In this document: piece by piece, positions 47,987-53,604 of the stretch
How the letters are laid out: the number at the start of each line of letters is the position of its first letter
Numbering within the stretch: the stretch's first letter is position 1
Assembly: GCA_028683385.1 (NCBI GenBank)
Contig: JAQUIJ010000022.1
Coordinates: 1-64,000, forward strand
Reading direction: 5' to 3'
DNA length: 64,000 bases
DNA from: Prolixibacteraceae bacterium
GTDB lineage: Bacteria; Bacteroidota; Bacteroidia; Bacteroidales; Prolixibacteraceae
Program-made: the position numbers and the translations under genes
The notes under the pieces: generated by a model
The model's database searches: none
Told to the model about the DNA's origin: nothing
Seen by the model: the letters and a program-made list of their open reading frames with translations, nothing else

Positions 47987-50455
47987 TTATACTCCCAATT
48001 TATTTCTCCTGATCTGTTCGGCGCTGGTAAAATTGTTTTTCACCACATGGCCTTTTAATGGCAGCATTTTTTCGTGGATCGCATCGATCATCCAGTCTGC
48101 GCAGGGGAAGAATGAGTTTTCGAGTTCGTAAGCCGGAGTGATCCAGTTGCGCGAACCAACCACTACTGGTGGAGCATCCAGATCATCGAAGGCCAGTTCT
48201 GATATGGTTTGTGCCATTTCTTTCATAAACGATCCACGGGTTGAGGCATCTCCTGAAATTAAAATCCGTCCCGTCTTTTTAATTGAAGCCAAAACGGGTT
48301 CGTAGTTAAACGGACTTAAACTTCGTGCATCAATTACTTCTGCCGAAATTCCGTATTTTTCCTGAAGAATATCAGCAGCTTCAATGGCACGGTATAAAGT
48401 TGCACCAATGGTCAGAATAGTTACATCTGTTCCTTCGCGTTTCACATCCGGTTCACCAATGGCAATTTCGTAATAACCTTCAGGAACACCACCTTTGTGG
48501 AACATTTCACCCATGTCATACAAACGTTGGCTTTCAAAGAAAATTACCGGATCGGTACCCTGCAATGCTGCATTCATCAAACCTTTGGCATCATATGGAG
48601 TCGCAGGGAAAACCACTTTCAATCCCGGAATCTGAGCAGTCAAAGCAGTCCAGTCCTGTGAGTGTTGAGCGCCGTATTTCGAACCTACCGAAACACGCAA
48701 CACCACCGGCATTTTGATCACGTTTCCGCTCATCGCCTGCCATTTCGGGAGTTGGTTAAACACCTGATCGCCGCAACGGCCAAGGAAGTCGCAATACATG
48801 ATTTCAGGAATGACACGGCCGCCACACATCGCATAACCAATTGCTGTTCCAACGATGGCAGCTTCAGCAATCGGAGAGTTGAACAAACGGTGATATGGAA
48901 GCGCTTCGGTCAAACCGCGATACACAGCAAACGCACCACCCCAGTCACGGTTTTCTTCACCGTAGGCAATTAGAGTTGGGTCTTTGTAGAAACGATCAAC
49001 GATTGCCTCGAAAATTCCGTCGCGGTAGGCGTAAGTTTTTATTTTTGAGTGTGCTTTGCCATTTTCGTCAAATGCAAAACGTTCTTTTTTAGCCAATTGC
49101 TGAACGCGTGGGTTTTCTTCCATTGGATGATTTACGTCCGGAGCACGGTCTTCCATGCGGTCAACTGATTCGTTTCCAAACATCATCTCACCAATCAGGT
49201 TTGGATTTTTTGCCATATCCATCCGTGGAGAAATCTCCAGGTCAATCGCCAGTTTCATGCTCGATTCCATCAAACTGATGGTGTCGCCTTTAATTCCGGT
49301 TAATTGTTCTTCAGTAGCTACTCCGGTTTTAACCAGTTCTTTTCCAAACCAGGCAATCGAATCCTGTGCTTCCCAGGCTTCCACTTCTTCTTTCGAACGA
49401 TACGAAGATGCATCTGAAGGAGAGTGACCGCTGTAACGGTAAGTCAAAACATCCAATAAAACCGGTCCGCGTTTTTCTTCCAGAATTTTACGTTTGCGTT
49501 TGTAAGCGTCAATCACAGCAAGCGGATTGTACCCATCTACACGCTCTGCGTGAAGTTGATCGGCGTTCAAACCAGCACCAATACGGGCAGCAACTGTGTA
49601 ACCTGCAGTTTCGCCACAAGTTTGCCCACCCATTCCGTATTGATTGTTCATGATGTTGATGATCAACGGAAGACCACCTTTCATATCACCTTCCCACAAT
49701 TCGTTGAATTGATCCATCGTAGCGAAAGTCAGACCTTCCCAGACCGGACCACAAGCCATCGAAGCATCACCAATGTTGGCAACCACGATTCCTTCTTTGC
49801 GGTTTACTTTTTTATAAAGCGCGGCACCTACTGCAATATCTCCTGAACCTCCAACAATCGCGTTGTTCGGATAAACACCGAAAGGAGTAAAGAATGCGTG
49901 CATCGAACCACCCAATCCTTTGTTGAAACCGGTTTCACGCGCAAAGATTTCAGCCAGTGTTCCATAAATCAGGAATTTAATGGCCAGTTCCTTTACCGTT
50001 CCGGTATGTCCTTTTTTTACAGGCGCAAAAGTGATTCCGTCGAAATGACTTTCCATCACGTTCATCAGTTGTTCGTCGCTCAGTTTCGCGATGGCCGACA
50101 AGCCTTTGGCCAGAATTTCGCCGTGTGAACGGTGCGAACCGAAGATAAAATCCTCAACGCCCAGCGTATAAGCCATTCCAACCGCGGCAGCTTCCTGTCC
50201 TATTGACAAGTGAGCAGGTCCCGGATGATCATAAGCGATACCGTTGTAATCGCCACGGATTTTAATCATGTTCAACATGGTTTCAAACTCACGAATCACC
50301 ACCATATCGCGGTAAATACGCATCAAATCTTCATTGCTGAAATTTGCTTTTTCTTCTTCAACAGTTTTACTGTACTGGTTTACAGGAATCGGATTGAAGG
50401 TAATCTCACCAGCTTTCCTGACTTCTGATGGATCAATAAATTGTGACTTTGGCAT
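47987..50455 (-). CDS. 2-oxoacid dehydrogenase E1, fused alpha and beta subunits
   Basis: The 822-residue protein joins the two E1 subunits in one chain. The alpha half (about 1-460) has the thiamine diphosphate site with SHRSHGEILAKG, GGSGDIAVGAA and GDASMACGPVWEGL; the beta half (about 480-822) has AYGEENRDWGGAFAVYRGL and GAQHSQDWTALTAQIPGLKVVFP. E1 decarboxylates the 2-oxoacid and passes the acyl group to lipoyl-E2. Pyruvate, branched-chain oxoacid or acetoin are possible substrates, and the sequence alone does not decide. The ATG at 50455 is chosen; the frame extends to 50497. It is the last gene of the E2-E3-E1 operon. Confidence 0.9.
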   Translation of the reverse strand: MPKSQFIDPSEVRKAGEITFNPIPVNQYSKTVEEEKANFSNEDLMRIYRDMVVIREFETMLNMIKIRGDYNGIAYDHPGPAHLSIGQEAAAVGMAYTLGVEDFIFGSHRSHGEILAKGLSAIAKLSDEQLMNVMESHFDGITFAPVKKGHTGTVKELAIKFLIYGTLAEIFARETGFNKGLGGSMHAFFTPFGVYPNNAIVGGSGDIAVGAALYKKVNRKEGIVVANIGDASMACGPVWEGLTFATMDQFNELWEGDMKGGLPLIINIMNNQYGMGGQTCGETAGYTVAARIGAGLNADQLHAERVDGYNPLAVIDAYKRKRKILEEKRGPVLLDVLTYRYSGHSPSDASSYRSKEEVEAWEAQDSIAWFGKELVKTGVATEEQLTGIKGDTISLMESSMKLAIDLEISPRMDMAKNPNLIGEMMFGNESVDRMEDRAPDVNHPMEENPRVQQLAKKERFAFDENGKAHSKIKTYAYRDGIFEAIVDRFYKDPTLIAYGEENRDWGGAFAVYRGLTEALPYHRLFNSPIAEAAIVGTAIGYAMCGGRVIPEIMYCDFLGRCGDQVFNQLPKWQAMSGNVIKMPVVLRVSVGSKYGAQHSQDWTALTAQIPGLKVVFPATPYDAKGLMNAALQGTDPVIFFESQRLYDMGEMFHKGGVPEGYYEIAIGEPDVKREGTDVTILTIGATLYRAIEAADILQEKYGISAEVIDARSLSPFNYEPVLASIKKTGRILISGDASTRGSFMKEMAQTISELAFDDLDAPPVVVGSRNWITPAYELENSFFPCADWMIDAIHEKMLPLKGHVVKNNFTSAEQIRRNKLGV

Positions 50456-50509
50456 CGTATTTTGTTTTAAAATTGTTTTTCGTTGTTTTAACTCCACTTT
50501 AAAAGCTGC

Positions 50510-50705
50510 AATTTAATACCCCGAAGGGGTTAAATTTGAATAACCACCGGTGAAACCGGTGGAAAAGAACTACAACAAATACCCAACCCTGAAAGGGTTG
50601 TATTAATTACAGCCCTAATATTCAACCCTTTCAGGGTTGATGTATTGTTTTTCGTCTTCCGTGGGTTTCACCCACGGTTATTCAGATTAAGTCCTTTCAG
50701 GACTT
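50510..50705. repeat. Array of six GAA-loop hairpins as two facing three-hairpin elements
   Basis: Hairpins at 50510-50536, 50544-50562 and 50584-50600 have a GAA loop on the plus strand. Those at 50623-50639, 50659-50677 and 50689-50705 have TTC, that is, GAA on the minus strand. Read in the same direction, the two halves align hairpin by hairpin: TGAATAA precedes hairpin 2 in both, an A-rich linker precedes hairpin 3 in both, and hairpin 3 (CAACCCT-GAA-AGGGTTG) is identical. Hairpins 1 and 2 have different but fully paired stems, for example CCACCGGT/ACCGGTGG against CCGTGGGT/ACCCACGG. It abuts the lpdA stop codon and lies within the operon transcript. Confidence 0.88.
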
Positions 50706-52064
50706 TCAAAACTGAAAGATCGTTTCCTTGATGATCTCACTCACGGTCGGGTGGGGGAATACAATTTCTTCCACGTCCTGAACACGCAGTTGCGCTTCGA
50801 TGATGGCACAGGCTCCCCAAATCATTTCGGAACAAGCTCCGCCAACCATATGAATCCCGAGAATTTCGCGGTATTTTTTACCGACAATCACTTTGCAGAA
50901 ACCGTCTTTACCTTCGTTTTCGGCAACAAACCGCCCGGCAAAAGCCATTGGCAGTTGTTTCACTTCCACTTCAATGCCTTTTTCTTTGGCTGCGGTTTCG
51001 GTAAGTCCAACTCCGGCAATCTCAGGATGAGTATAAACTACGCCAGGAATGGCATCATAACGCATCATATCTTTCCGACCCAGCATGTGGTTTACCGCCA
51101 CTTCACCTTCGCGACTGGCCGTGTGTGCCAATAATGAGAATCCGGTGATGTCACCGGCGGCATAAACATTCGGCACATTGGTGCGGCAATTCTGATCGAT
51201 TTTTACTCCACGTGGCGTAAATTCAACACCGATATTTTCGAGACCAATTCCAGTCGCATTGACTTTTCTACCAACAGAAAGCAAAACCTGATCACCAGTA
51301 ATTTTCATTTCCTGATCGTCTTTTTCGAAGACCACTTCTTTGCCGTTTAGTTTGGTTACGCGGGCATTCAGGTGGAATTCGATTCCTTTTTTCACAAATT
51401 CTTTGCGAACAAAAGCAGCAATTTCTTCATCCACTCCGGTTAAAATCTCCGGAAGCATTTCGATGACAGTCACTTTGGTTCCCATCGCGTTGAAAAAATC
51501 GGCAAATTCAGAACCGATCACACCGCCACCAATAATGACGAGGCTTTCAGGCTTTTCCTTGAGCTGAAGAATTTCGCGGTTGGTCAAAATCTGCGAGGCA
51601 TCCAGTCCCGGAATTGGAGGGACGGCAGCTTCAGAACCAGCGCAAACCAATAAACGGTTCGCCTGATATTCCTGACCATCAGCTTCGATGGTAATTACTT
51701 CGCCACGTTTTTCCTTGATGGTTGCTTTGGCCATCACCACATCGGCTTTGGCATGTTTCATTTTGGCGCCAATTCCGGCAACCAGTTTGCGTACCACTTT
51801 GTCTTTGCGGAGCATGATTTTCTTGAAATCGATGGAAATGTTTTCCACATTGATTCCGTATTTGCCTGCTTCTTCGGCATATTCGAGCATTTTGGCCGAA
51901 TTCAGAAGTGTTTTGGTTGGTATGCAACCTTCGTTCAGGCAAACACCACCCAGCGAACGCATGTCGAATATCAAAACGCTCATGCCTTTGGCTCCGGCAC
52001 GTTCTGCTGCTACATAACCTGCAGGGCCTCCGCCTATAATTGCTAAATCGTATATTTTGCTCAT
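50706..52064 (-). CDS. lpdA: Dihydrolipoyl dehydrogenase (E3)
   Basis: The 452-residue flavoprotein reoxidises the dihydrolipoyl group of E2 with NAD. It has the FAD fold DLAIIGGGPAGYVAA, the redox disulfide GGVCLNEGCIPTK, the NAD fold VIIGGGVIGSEFADFF, the FAD motif VYAAGDITG, and the catalytic HPHPT-type histidine near the C terminus (FPHPTVSE). The ATG at 52064 is correct; the frame is open to 52253, but that extension is a translation of a palindromic repeat. Hairpin repeats flank the gene on both sides. Confidence 0.96.
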   Translation of the reverse strand: MSKIYDLAIIGGGPAGYVAAERAGAKGMSVLIFDMRSLGGVCLNEGCIPTKTLLNSAKMLEYAEEAGKYGINVENISIDFKKIMLRKDKVVRKLVAGIGAKMKHAKADVVMAKATIKEKRGEVITIEADGQEYQANRLLVCAGSEAAVPPIPGLDASQILTNREILQLKEKPESLVIIGGGVIGSEFADFFNAMGTKVTVIEMLPEILTGVDEEIAAFVRKEFVKKGIEFHLNARVTKLNGKEVVFEKDDQEMKITGDQVLLSVGRKVNATGIGLENIGVEFTPRGVKIDQNCRTNVPNVYAAGDITGFSLLAHTASREGEVAVNHMLGRKDMMRYDAIPGVVYTHPEIAGVGLTETAAKEKGIEVEVKQLPMAFAGRFVAENEGKDGFCKVIVGKKYREILGIHMVGGACSEMIWGACAIIEAQLRVQDVEEIVFPHPTVSEIIKETIFQF

Positions 52065-52171
52065 TGTATTTTTATTGTTCTTTTTAATCTTGATTTGATC
52101 TATTTCGTCCGAAATTTGATCCTCACATTTATCATCATTTGCTCGCGGACGATTTTGCTTTTGTTCTATTT

Positions 52172-52200
52172 CCCCCGGGTTGAAACCCGGGGCTACAATA
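52172..52200. repeat. Single GAA-loop hairpin, relative of the 50510-50705 array
   Basis: CCCCGGGT (52173-52180) pairs with ACCCGGGG (52185-52192) around TGAA. It is followed by CTACAATA, like the CTACAACAA linker after hairpin 2 of the array. It lies in the 220-base gap between the E2 and E3 genes; the rest of that gap holds no gene. Translated on the minus strand it gives VAPGFNPGE, which produces a false N-terminal extension of lpdA. Confidence 0.75.
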
Positions 52201-52284
52201 TTTCCACCGCTACGCAGTTTAAATTCGATGCACAAATCGACGTATTTCGACATCCCGAAACGCGCAACTCGTAACCTGCAACAA

Positions 52285-53604
52285 TTAAATCACAAGATTT
52301 TCAATTTGTTCTTTAATCTCTCTCAGGAAAAGCGTTGCTTCGCCGCCGTCCAATGCCTGATGGTCGTAGGTTAGCGACAAACCCATCATCGGAACGAATC
52401 CGTAAACGCCATCGCCCAAATCTTTCGGACGTGGAACAATGGTACAAACGCCCAAAATAGCAGTCTGCGGAATGTTGATGACCGGAGTAAACATTTCGAC
52501 ACCGTAGTTTCCAAGGTTGGAAATGGTGAAAGTTGCAGCTTCAGGTGCCAGTAACTCCGGACTCACATTGCCTTTGCGGCATTGTCCGGCGATGGCTTGC
52601 AGCTGTCCCGAAAGTCCTTCTAGTGAAAGATCATCGGCATTTTTAATGGCAGGTACCATCAATCCGCGATCGGTATCAACAGCCAGACCAAGGTGAACTT
52701 TCTTGAACCAGCGCATGCTGTCGCCAATAAAATGGGTATTTACCTGTGGAAATTTCTTTAGAGCTTTGATCACCGCGAAACAAACCAAATCGTTGATGGT
52801 GATGTTCTGCGTAATTTGTCCGGCATCGAGTGCTTTCTTGTATTTTTTGCGCAAAGCCATGATGGTGCGGGCATCGGCGCTCATGTGGTGAGTCAACTGA
52901 GCTGAGTTTTGCAGCGAAGTATGCATTGCTTTGGCAATTAACTTGCGCATGTTGGTGAGTTTTTTCACTTCGAAATCGTCGCTGTAAATCGGATTGTACG
53001 AAATTAGGTCTTTTGCAACTGCTTTTCCTCCCAATCCAGTTGTCGTTTCGCCAACTTTCAGGCCTTCTGCTTTGGCTTTTTCCTGAGCCAGCGGAGTGAG
53101 TTTTGGCATCACCTGTGCCGCAGCTTCAATGTCGCGCTCAATGATACGACCTTCAGGACCGGAACCATGTAATTGTTGATAAGCAACACCTGACTTTTCA
53201 GCCAGATTTTTCGCACGGGGCGAAATTTTTACTTTTCCTGATGGTTCCGAAACCGTTTTTACTTCCGGAACAGTAGCCTTTTCAGCAACTACCTCAGCGG
53301 CAGCAGCAGTTTCAGCAACAGGAGCGGCTACTTGTCCACCCGGACGGAATTCGTCGACCGATTCACCGGCAGCACCGATGACTGCAACGTTTACCAATAC
53401 CGGAACTTCGTCGCCTTCAGCAAAAAACACGTCTAACAAAATACCGTCAGCTTTGGCTTCCTCTTCAAACGAAGCTTTGTCTGTTTCATACGAAAAAAGG
53501 ATGTCGCCTACCTTCACAGCGTCACCCTTCTTCTTAACCCATTCACCTAAAATACAGGTCTCAACCGATTGCCCCTGACGAGGCATTAATACAGGAATTG
53601 CCAT
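52285..53604 (-). CDS. 2-oxoacid dehydrogenase E2, dihydrolipoamide acyltransferase
   Basis: The 439-residue protein has one lipoyl domain (about 1-80, lysine in YETDKASFEEEA), an Ala/Val/Glu-rich linker (about 90-125), a peripheral-subunit-binding domain (about 128-165, KISPRAKNLAEKSGV, GPEGRIIERDIE), and the catalytic core ending SLTYDHQALDGGEATLF, where HQALDG stands for the active-site HxxxDG. It receives the acyl group from E1 and gives it to CoA. It is the first gene of the E2-E3-E1 operon and starts 197 bases from the divergent gntR gene. Confidence 0.92.
   Translation of the reverse strand: MAIPVLMPRQGQSVETCILGEWVKKKGDAVKVGDILFSYETDKASFEEEAKADGILLDVFFAEGDEVPVLVNVAVIGAAGESVDEFRPGGQVAAPVAETAAAAEVVAEKATVPEVKTVSEPSGKVKISPRAKNLAEKSGVAYQQLHGSGPEGRIIERDIEAAAQVMPKLTPLAQEKAKAEGLKVGETTTGLGGKAVAKDLISYNPIYSDDFEVKKLTNMRKLIAKAMHTSLQNSAQLTHHMSADARTIMALRKKYKKALDAGQITQNITINDLVCFAVIKALKKFPQVNTHFIGDSMRWFKKVHLGLAVDTDRGLMVPAIKNADDLSLEGLSGQLQAIAGQCRKGNVSPELLAPEAATFTISNLGNYGVEMFTPVINIPQTAILGVCTIVPRPKDLGDGVYGFVPMMGLSLTYDHQALDGGEATLFLREIKEQIENLVI

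Follow-up and report, generated by a model that had tools for sequence, protein, structure and literature searches.

The window analysed here is a stretch of 64,000 nucleotides from a Prolixibacteraceae bacterium, and its minus strand carries the genes of a 2-oxoacid dehydrogenase operon. The E2 gene (52285–53604; PF00198, PF02817) lies upstream of an lpdA-like dihydrolipoamide dehydrogenase gene (50706–52064; PF07992, PF02852), which precedes a fused E1 gene (47987–50455; PF00676, PF02779, PF02780). We took MSKIYD as the start of lpdA, the mechanical ORF being longer, and the ATG at 50455 as the start of E1, for which the mechanical ORF begins with a GTG at 50497. In the gap between lpdA and E1 we found two inverted halves of ~90 nt, 50515–50604 and 50619–50706, each made of three hairpins with GAA loops. 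All six hairpins are perfect, with the GAA loops on the plus strand in three and on the minus strand in the other three, and the facing pair of three-hairpin halves described in the initial annotation is thus as reported.

Half A, on the plus strand, presents hairpins 1-2-3 in order. Hairpin 1A (ACCCC-GAA-GGGGT, 50518–50530) is followed by an unpaired linker (50531–50543) that carries a conserved AATAA immediately 5' of hairpin 2; at AATA the conservation is A 88%, A 85%, T 98% and A 92% in an alignment of 150 sequences. Hairpin 2A (CCACCGGT-GAA-ACCGGTGG, 50544–50562) and hairpin 3A (CAACCCT-GAA-AGGGTTG, 50584–50600) complete this half. Facing it on the minus strand is half B, with hairpin 3B (TCAACCCT-GAA-AGGGTTGA, 50622–50640), hairpin 2B (CCGTGGGT-GAA-ACCCACGG, 50659–50677) and hairpin 1B (AAGTCCT-GAA-AGGACTT, 50689–50705), the last of which lies immediately past the lpdA stop codon. 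Three consecutive base pairs of hairpin 2 differ between the halves and all three are compensated, as had been noted before; hairpin 1 also differs (five versus seven pairs), and hairpin 3 retains a seven-pair core. The initial annotation needs one correction: the halves represent two recurrent types, I (half A) and II (half B), assigned from hairpin 2.

Compared with dinucleotide shuffles, the halves fold with z-scores of −5.3 and −8.2, equalled by 0 of 200 shuffles, and the whole element reaches −11.5 as DNA and −10.2 as RNA. A search of Rfam, at gathering thresholds and with a relaxed E-value, returned no family at gathering score for the element.

Dispersed copies and paired variation

Counting the element itself, a BLAST search gave 34 matches in this genome, from which a single 21-nt match (L015) and an overlapping, spurious one (L004_m_1584) were removed. 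Of 27 trimmed halves, 22 entered a first alignment (A1), leaving out three whose hairpin 1 contains an additional palindrome and two without hairpin 3. These 22 dispersed halves, with the three hairpins as structure, were used to build the covariance model R1, which scores its training halves A and B of the window at 93.8 and 97.2 bits, respectively. At E ≤ 1 there are 39 R1 matches in this genome, including the 22 training halves, and the 25 strongest (at least 63.5 bits) form 12 pairs and one single half. Hairpin 3 points inward in six of the 12 pairs, as in the window, and hairpin 1 points inward in the other six; moreover, 11 of the 12 combine type I with type II (P about 0.01). In three halves (L018, L020 and L021) a nested palindrome resembling CCTGCCGGCCGCAGGCAGG replaces the GAA loop of hairpin 1. 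A weak relative of the element also lies on the minus strand between E2 and lpdA (52151–52221; 25.5 bits, E 0.0045) and is clear only in its hairpin 2, CCCCGGG...CCCGGGG. Of 19 orthologous loci, 11 (L158–L160, L162–L166, L168, L169 and L171) have weak R1 matches (26–46 bits) 5' of lpdA.

In the 22-half alignment, 91.7% of the cells are paired and 14 of the 22 pairs change on both sides, more than in any of 500 shuffles, and pairing falls to at most 56% when the partners are shifted by one column. We also assembled a larger alignment (A3) from the best 150 of 218 matches at 77 loci that were chosen for having matches (66 of the 80 loci in named genomes and 11 of the genus, both described below). 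Since its loci were chosen in this way and the alignment was fitted to R1, the pairing and conservation percentages of A3 lean towards the model: 95.6% of the cells are paired, two-sided changes are seen in 21 of the 22 pairs and, cell by cell, number 772 compared with 200 in shuffles, and slid partners pair in at most 49%. RNAalifold predicts the three stems from A3, with 20 pairs, every one of which shows changes on both sides. The GAA loops are conserved at 81–91% in hairpins 1 and 3, and in hairpin 2 the values are 76% for G, 60% for the first A and 94% for the second. Other conserved unpaired bases in A3 are the AATA 5' of hairpin 2 (85–98%) and the AA 3' of hairpins 1 and 3 (85–93%). The strong covariation in both alignments, together with the RNAalifold prediction, supports the proposal of the initial annotation that structure and loop are under selection. 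It had named a lack of further copies or of covariation as evidence to the contrary, and both are present.

At E 1e-3, R1 has hits in each of the 23 genus genomes, our own included, with 1 to 127 matches per genome, and it matches at the same threshold 104 of 140 genomes and 17 of 23 genera of the family, again counting our own. Across the phylum, 36 of 296 drawn genomes, own included, have a match at E 1e-4. The spacers of the genus appear by eye to be rich in inverted repeats of other families, which would suit an origin of the hairpins by chance in AT-rich spacers, but the fold z-scores, the covariation across 150 sequences and the specificity of the model, with 260 of the 296 phylum genomes lacking a match, reduce the probability of such an origin to practically nothing.

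Orthologous spacers and the operon setting

Strong double matches (at least 69 bits) are present in three of 18 readable lpdA-E1 gaps, in five of 21 leuC-leuD gaps and, upstream of the uxaC-like gene of L003, in one of 17 gaps, the names leuC-leuD and uxaC-like having been read from the sequences. Two leuC-leuD gaps (L197 and L201) hold one weak match each, of 34.4 and 33.6 bits. Hairpin 2 of the leuC-leuD elements reads, by eye, CCGTCCCGAT...ATCGGGGCGG in L191 and L203 and CGTGGG...CCCACG in three others.

That the hairpins act in the operon mRNA, on its stability, on attenuation or on E1 translation, with covariation reflecting selection for RNA folding, is a reading to which the setting lends itself. 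The element sits between co-oriented operon genes, six of 13 elements of this genome lie in short gaps between co-oriented ORFs (the window, L003, L004, L017, L019 and L026; crude ORF calls), the RNA fold is strong, and there are three terminator-like matches (two on the plus strand and one on the minus strand) where 0.6 are expected. We nevertheless consider an RNA element unlikely, as 15 of the 18 readable orthologous lpdA-E1 gaps are without a strong match, no Rfam family reached its gathering score for the element, and the module is associated with a single clade of transposases across many Bacteroidota. G-U pairs are also few (113 of 3238 cells in A3), so that DNA suits the paired structure at least as well as RNA.

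In many element-free gaps one sees, by eye, a small ORF or inverted repeats of other kinds. At the site of the element, nine of the 18 lpdA-E1 gaps (L159, L160, L161, L163, L165, L166, L168, L169 and L170) have a small RFEDLKIWQLARELC-like ORF between inverted repeats such as GTTCCAAATTTCAAGTTCCAAGT (by eye). We take this ORF to be of the four-helix-bundle, 23S-intervening-sequence type. The lpdA-E1 spacer looks like an insertion hotspot. Another small ORF, RTKKFAH[DE]CVK-like, is seen by eye in eight of the 21 leuC-leuD gaps (L187, L189, L190, L192, L196, L198, L200 and L202) between TTGAATCTTGAA-type repeats, with TTGATTATT-like repeats instead in L200 and L202. The spacer upstream of the uxaC-like gene (L207–L223) contains several unrelated inverted-repeat families across species; eight of 17 have, for instance, a AGTTCGGAGTGCCTAAA type, and several others a CAATTTACTATT...AATTGTAAATC type (by eye). 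It is as if the spacers of this genus had been re-filled repeatedly.

Ends around a Y1 transposase clade

The genome contains eight Y1 transposase genes. R1, which was blind to transposase loci, matches both flanks of one of them, L013, the only gene of its clade in this genome, with E-values of 2.6e-7 and 8.9e-6 (45.9 and 38.5 bits); this is the best of the eight loci, the runner-up reaching 28.9 bits. Since the gene that adjoins the matching ends is a Y1 transposase gene, the retron or intron alternative raised in the initial annotation was set aside. L014 was also considered as the cognate gene, having one GTCCTGAAAGGAC hairpin in its left flank, and was dropped with an R1 score of only 17.5 bits. 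Four Y1 genes of the same signature in this genome (L010, L011, L012 and L015) have other hairpin repeats as flanks, and around the L015 gene an apparent three-hairpin unit is repeated (by eye).

Every one of the 23 genus genomes holds relatives of the L013 protein (99 matches at E 1e-10). Of these 99 loci, 95 were scanned with R1, the four omitted being of 27–29% identity, and for L016 tblastn returned no match. The protein tree comprises 90 rows, with five sequences shorter than 110 aa (L067, L082, L121, L124 and L148) omitted. Among the omitted five, L067 and L124 have flanking elements on either side, and in L121 an element lies at a distance of 812 nt. Genes flanked at 30 bits or more make up 24 of the 38 inside one supported clade and none of the 52 outside it (Fisher P 2e-12, a value that ignores relatedness). 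On the tree the flank state requires four changes, compared with 21.4 in shuffles, and none of 500 shuffles had as few. Fourteen of the 38 genes inside the clade are unflanked at 30 bits, and outside it weaker matches reach up to 29.5 bits (L139). In the L013 subclade of the tree all 17 genes are flanked, and with L067 (87% identity) 18 of 18 genus genes of the L013 clade have a nearby element of at least 30 bits, on both sides in 11 of 18 by script count. At five of these 18 (L072, L074, L075, L090 and L096), the nearest element of at least 30 bits turns hairpin 1 to the gene.

The link extends beyond the genus. Among named genomes we scanned the top 80 from a set of 547 confirmed relatives, counting elements of at least 30 bits within 350 nt; four of these loci have less than 150 nt of flank on one side, and one, L247, is on the same contig as L069 of the genus set. 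In these best 80 of 547, both flanks carry an element at 49 genes, one flank at 24 and neither at seven. Hairpin 3 of the nearest element is turned towards the gene in 111 of 122 cases, at a median of 7 nt from the stop and 37 nt from the start. The records include Draconibacterium, Carboxylicivirga, Chryseobacterium and Kaistella as well as Cyclobacterium, Algoriphagus, Pedobacter and Prevotella, and the few labelled as other phyla are metagenome bins that may be misbinned.

End and protein diverge together. Across the 34 loci for which A3 contains both ends, end distance and protein distance are correlated (Mantel r 0.48 and 0.46; 0 of 2000 permutations), as they are in pairs of less than 65% identity (r 0.33 and 0.32; 0 of 2000 permutations each). 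Moreover, the distance between the two ends of a gene is smaller (0.344) than that to the ends of other genes (0.440; 0 of 5000, 34 loci).

The fit between the dispersed copies of this genome and its own L013 flanks is imperfect, and some relatives' gene flanks, also unseen by R1, score up to 87.6 bits. The copies may therefore stem from a lost gene or from another member of the clade. Copy number is tied only loosely to holding such a transposase gene: the median is 31.5 in genomes with one and 14 in those without (one-sided P 0.017), and genome G009 has 56 R1 matches and no such gene. Perfect-stem hairpins occur at 3.43 per 400 nt around the 23 R1-positive Y1 genes, at 0.87 around the 62 R1-negative ones and at 0.18 in the control. 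Given the lower density around R1-negative genes, we claim no common rule for the whole of subclass 1.2, the subclass to which these enzymes are assigned below.

In genome G078 (L311–L322), five of the 12 fetched copies have outer repeats, GAGTCCACTCCG(A/G)AAAGT...ACTTTTCGGAGTGGACTC, around a three-hairpin pair, and for nine of the 12 a contig end is no more than about 150 nt away. No consistent target-site duplication was seen by eye at the G078 copies. Here the near-identical copies lie inside unrelated outer inverted repeats, and another transposase may therefore have spread them; the 247-bp element is probably chimeric and recently amplified. One could extend this to all pairs and regard them as passengers spread mainly by a different, terminal-inverted-repeat transposase, with the Y1 gene as one more carrier. 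The five G078 copies are indeed 247-bp elements, GAGTCCACTCCG...CGGAGTGGACTC, read end to end or within two bases; one copy of this genome, L004, resembles the outer repeat by eye; and the left flank of the window element resembles it weakly, with 9 of 2000 composition shuffles equal in a post hoc comparison. However, the strict outer-repeat pattern recurs in only one other fetched locus, L222, where no three-hairpin pair was noted, and the gene-facing orientation, the 7-nt spacing and the co-divergence would be left unexplained. We judge general spread as passengers to be improbable.

The enzyme, known systems and the window element

The residues H54, H56, Y114, Q118, H121 and H122 are the same in all 16 aligned members of the clade, and 15 of the 18 genus members are 148–149 aa long, the rest being broken, cut by a contig end or read as 180 aa. 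The protein passed the IS200/IS605 model NF033573 (72.2 bits, cut-off 55) and PF01797 (87.6 bits, cut-off 23). Its closest solved sequence is 2a6m, and the solved relatives include the transposases of IS608 and ISDra2. In an AlphaFold model of the L231 relative (pLDDT 88.3, pTM 0.78), ISDra2 and IS608 match ahead of 4er8, a RAYT structure that ranks 30th. From their Y---Q--HH signature, the transposases would belong to TnpA-Y1 subclass 1.2. The table entry for this subclass in Quentin et al. (2018; PMC6006769) gives REP as 'no', and the text of that paper adds that typical terminal IS200 secondary structure is generally missing from it. The clade agrees with the subclass as characterised there in signature, in a length of about 148 aa, in its [DN]H[IL]H motif and in its occurrence in Bacteroidota, and departs from that description in having conserved three-hairpin ends and dispersed copies. 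Indeed, 73 of the best 80 of 547 relatives have an R1-type end of at least 30 bits on at least one side.

The initial annotation had likened the layout to REP/BIME pairs handled by RAYTs. The likeness in layout stands, as inverted palindromic ends surround a Y1 gene and pairs are dispersed in the genome, both of which are described for RAYTs in the relevant passages of PMC2817692, and with the co-divergence of ends and protein it extends to REPtrons with their REP, BIME and REPIN sequences as outlined in PMC2817692 and PMC8266576. Membership in RAYT/REP finds no support. The REP-associated NCBIfam model (REP_Tyr_transpos) failed at 24.5 bits against a cut-off of 80, and the signature is Y---Q--HH, not the Y---NP listed for TnpA-REP in PMC6006769. 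A REP, in the accounts of PMC2817692 and PMC8266576, consists of a single hairpin with GT(A/G)G at its foot, whereas each end here has three GAA-loop hairpins and accompanies an IS200-type enzyme; in the 150-sequence consensus the GT(A/G)G foot is not found, and the conserved unpaired positions are AATA(A/G), the GAA loops and AAY. With 4er8 ranked only after 29 IS200/IS605-type and similar small-transposase chains, a canonical RAYT/REP (BIME/REPIN) system is very improbable. Since inverted ends flank a Y---Q--HH, IS200-type enzyme, we describe the arrangement as REPtron-like and not as canonical RAYT/REP.

Other Y1 systems share parts of this arrangement. Subclass 2.6, found mostly in Bacteroidetes, and class 3 TnpA-Y1 also have atypical hairpins at the gene and copies elsewhere, but by the text descriptions in PMC6006769, on which this comparison is based, their signatures, YIH[QN]NP and Y----Q, differ. 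TIRtrons/TIRYT likewise have inverted repeats flanking Y1 genes, some self-complementary and some dispersed, but their enzymes have RAYT motifs and the description in PMC3733652 of these systems, as far as it covers the ends, gives neither a three-hairpin module nor GAA loops. IS200/IS605 elements such as IS608 and ISDra2 share the enzyme family, the fold and the HUH and Y residues; they are, in the outline given in PMC2817692, without terminal inverted repeats, whereas the ends here are inverted three-hairpin modules. A Chryseobacterium 'RayT' gene has been reported, in a paper whose accessible text does not contain 'palindrom' (PMC11194056). In searches of open-access papers we found none recognisable as a description of three-hairpin subclass 1.2 ends.

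We propose, with a probability of roughly 0.8, that the window element is a gene-less, non-autonomous, MITE- or REPIN-like copy of the two ends that bound a small Y1 HUH transposase unit. The end module reads hairpin 1, AAY, an AATA(A/G) linker, hairpin 2, ~20 A-rich nt, hairpin 3 and AAY, and the full unit is [1-2-3] - tnpA - [3-2-1]. In the window this order is kept with 14 nt (50605–50618, between the two model matches) in the place that the transposase gene occupies in gene-bearing units, and the element is therefore best read as a non-autonomous pair. Several observations count against this proposal: the hairpin-1-inward layout of six of the 12 pairs, which simple deletion of the gene leaves unexplained, the imperfect match between the L013 flanks and the dispersed copies of this genome, the only loose dependence of copy number on the presence of such a gene, and the G078 copies carried within another inverted-repeat element.

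In the mechanism that we envisage, an end would fold on single-stranded DNA, for example on the lagging-strand template, and the IS200-type TnpA would recognise the GAA triloops together with the conserved unpaired bases that adjoin the stems, while accepting any paired stem. Its catalytic tyrosine would cleave and rejoin one strand, and TnpA could thereby move gene-bearing units and, in trans, gene-less pairs. Concerted drift of the stems alongside conserved loops would follow if the transposase reads loops and unpaired bases, with any paired stem sufficing. Binding, strand choice, cleavage, mobilisation and spread by this enzyme are inferred. On balance, we lean slightly towards the broader view that a lineage of subclass 1.2, IS200-type enzymes evolved a REPtron-like life independently of RAYTs, with a three-hairpin single-strand end that was compensatorily diversified in many Bacteroidota and formed lasting dispersed populations in operon spacers.

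The three-hairpin ends supply a DNA partner for a transposase subclass that was described in 2018 as generally without recognisable ends, and REPtron-like arrangements would thereby number two, apparently of independent origin. The 90-nt three-hairpin substrate, with its free stems and conserved loops, lends itself to direct tests of single-strand recognition. The same explanation accounts for one widespread class of unannotated spacer hairpins in Bacteroidota, including those in core operons.
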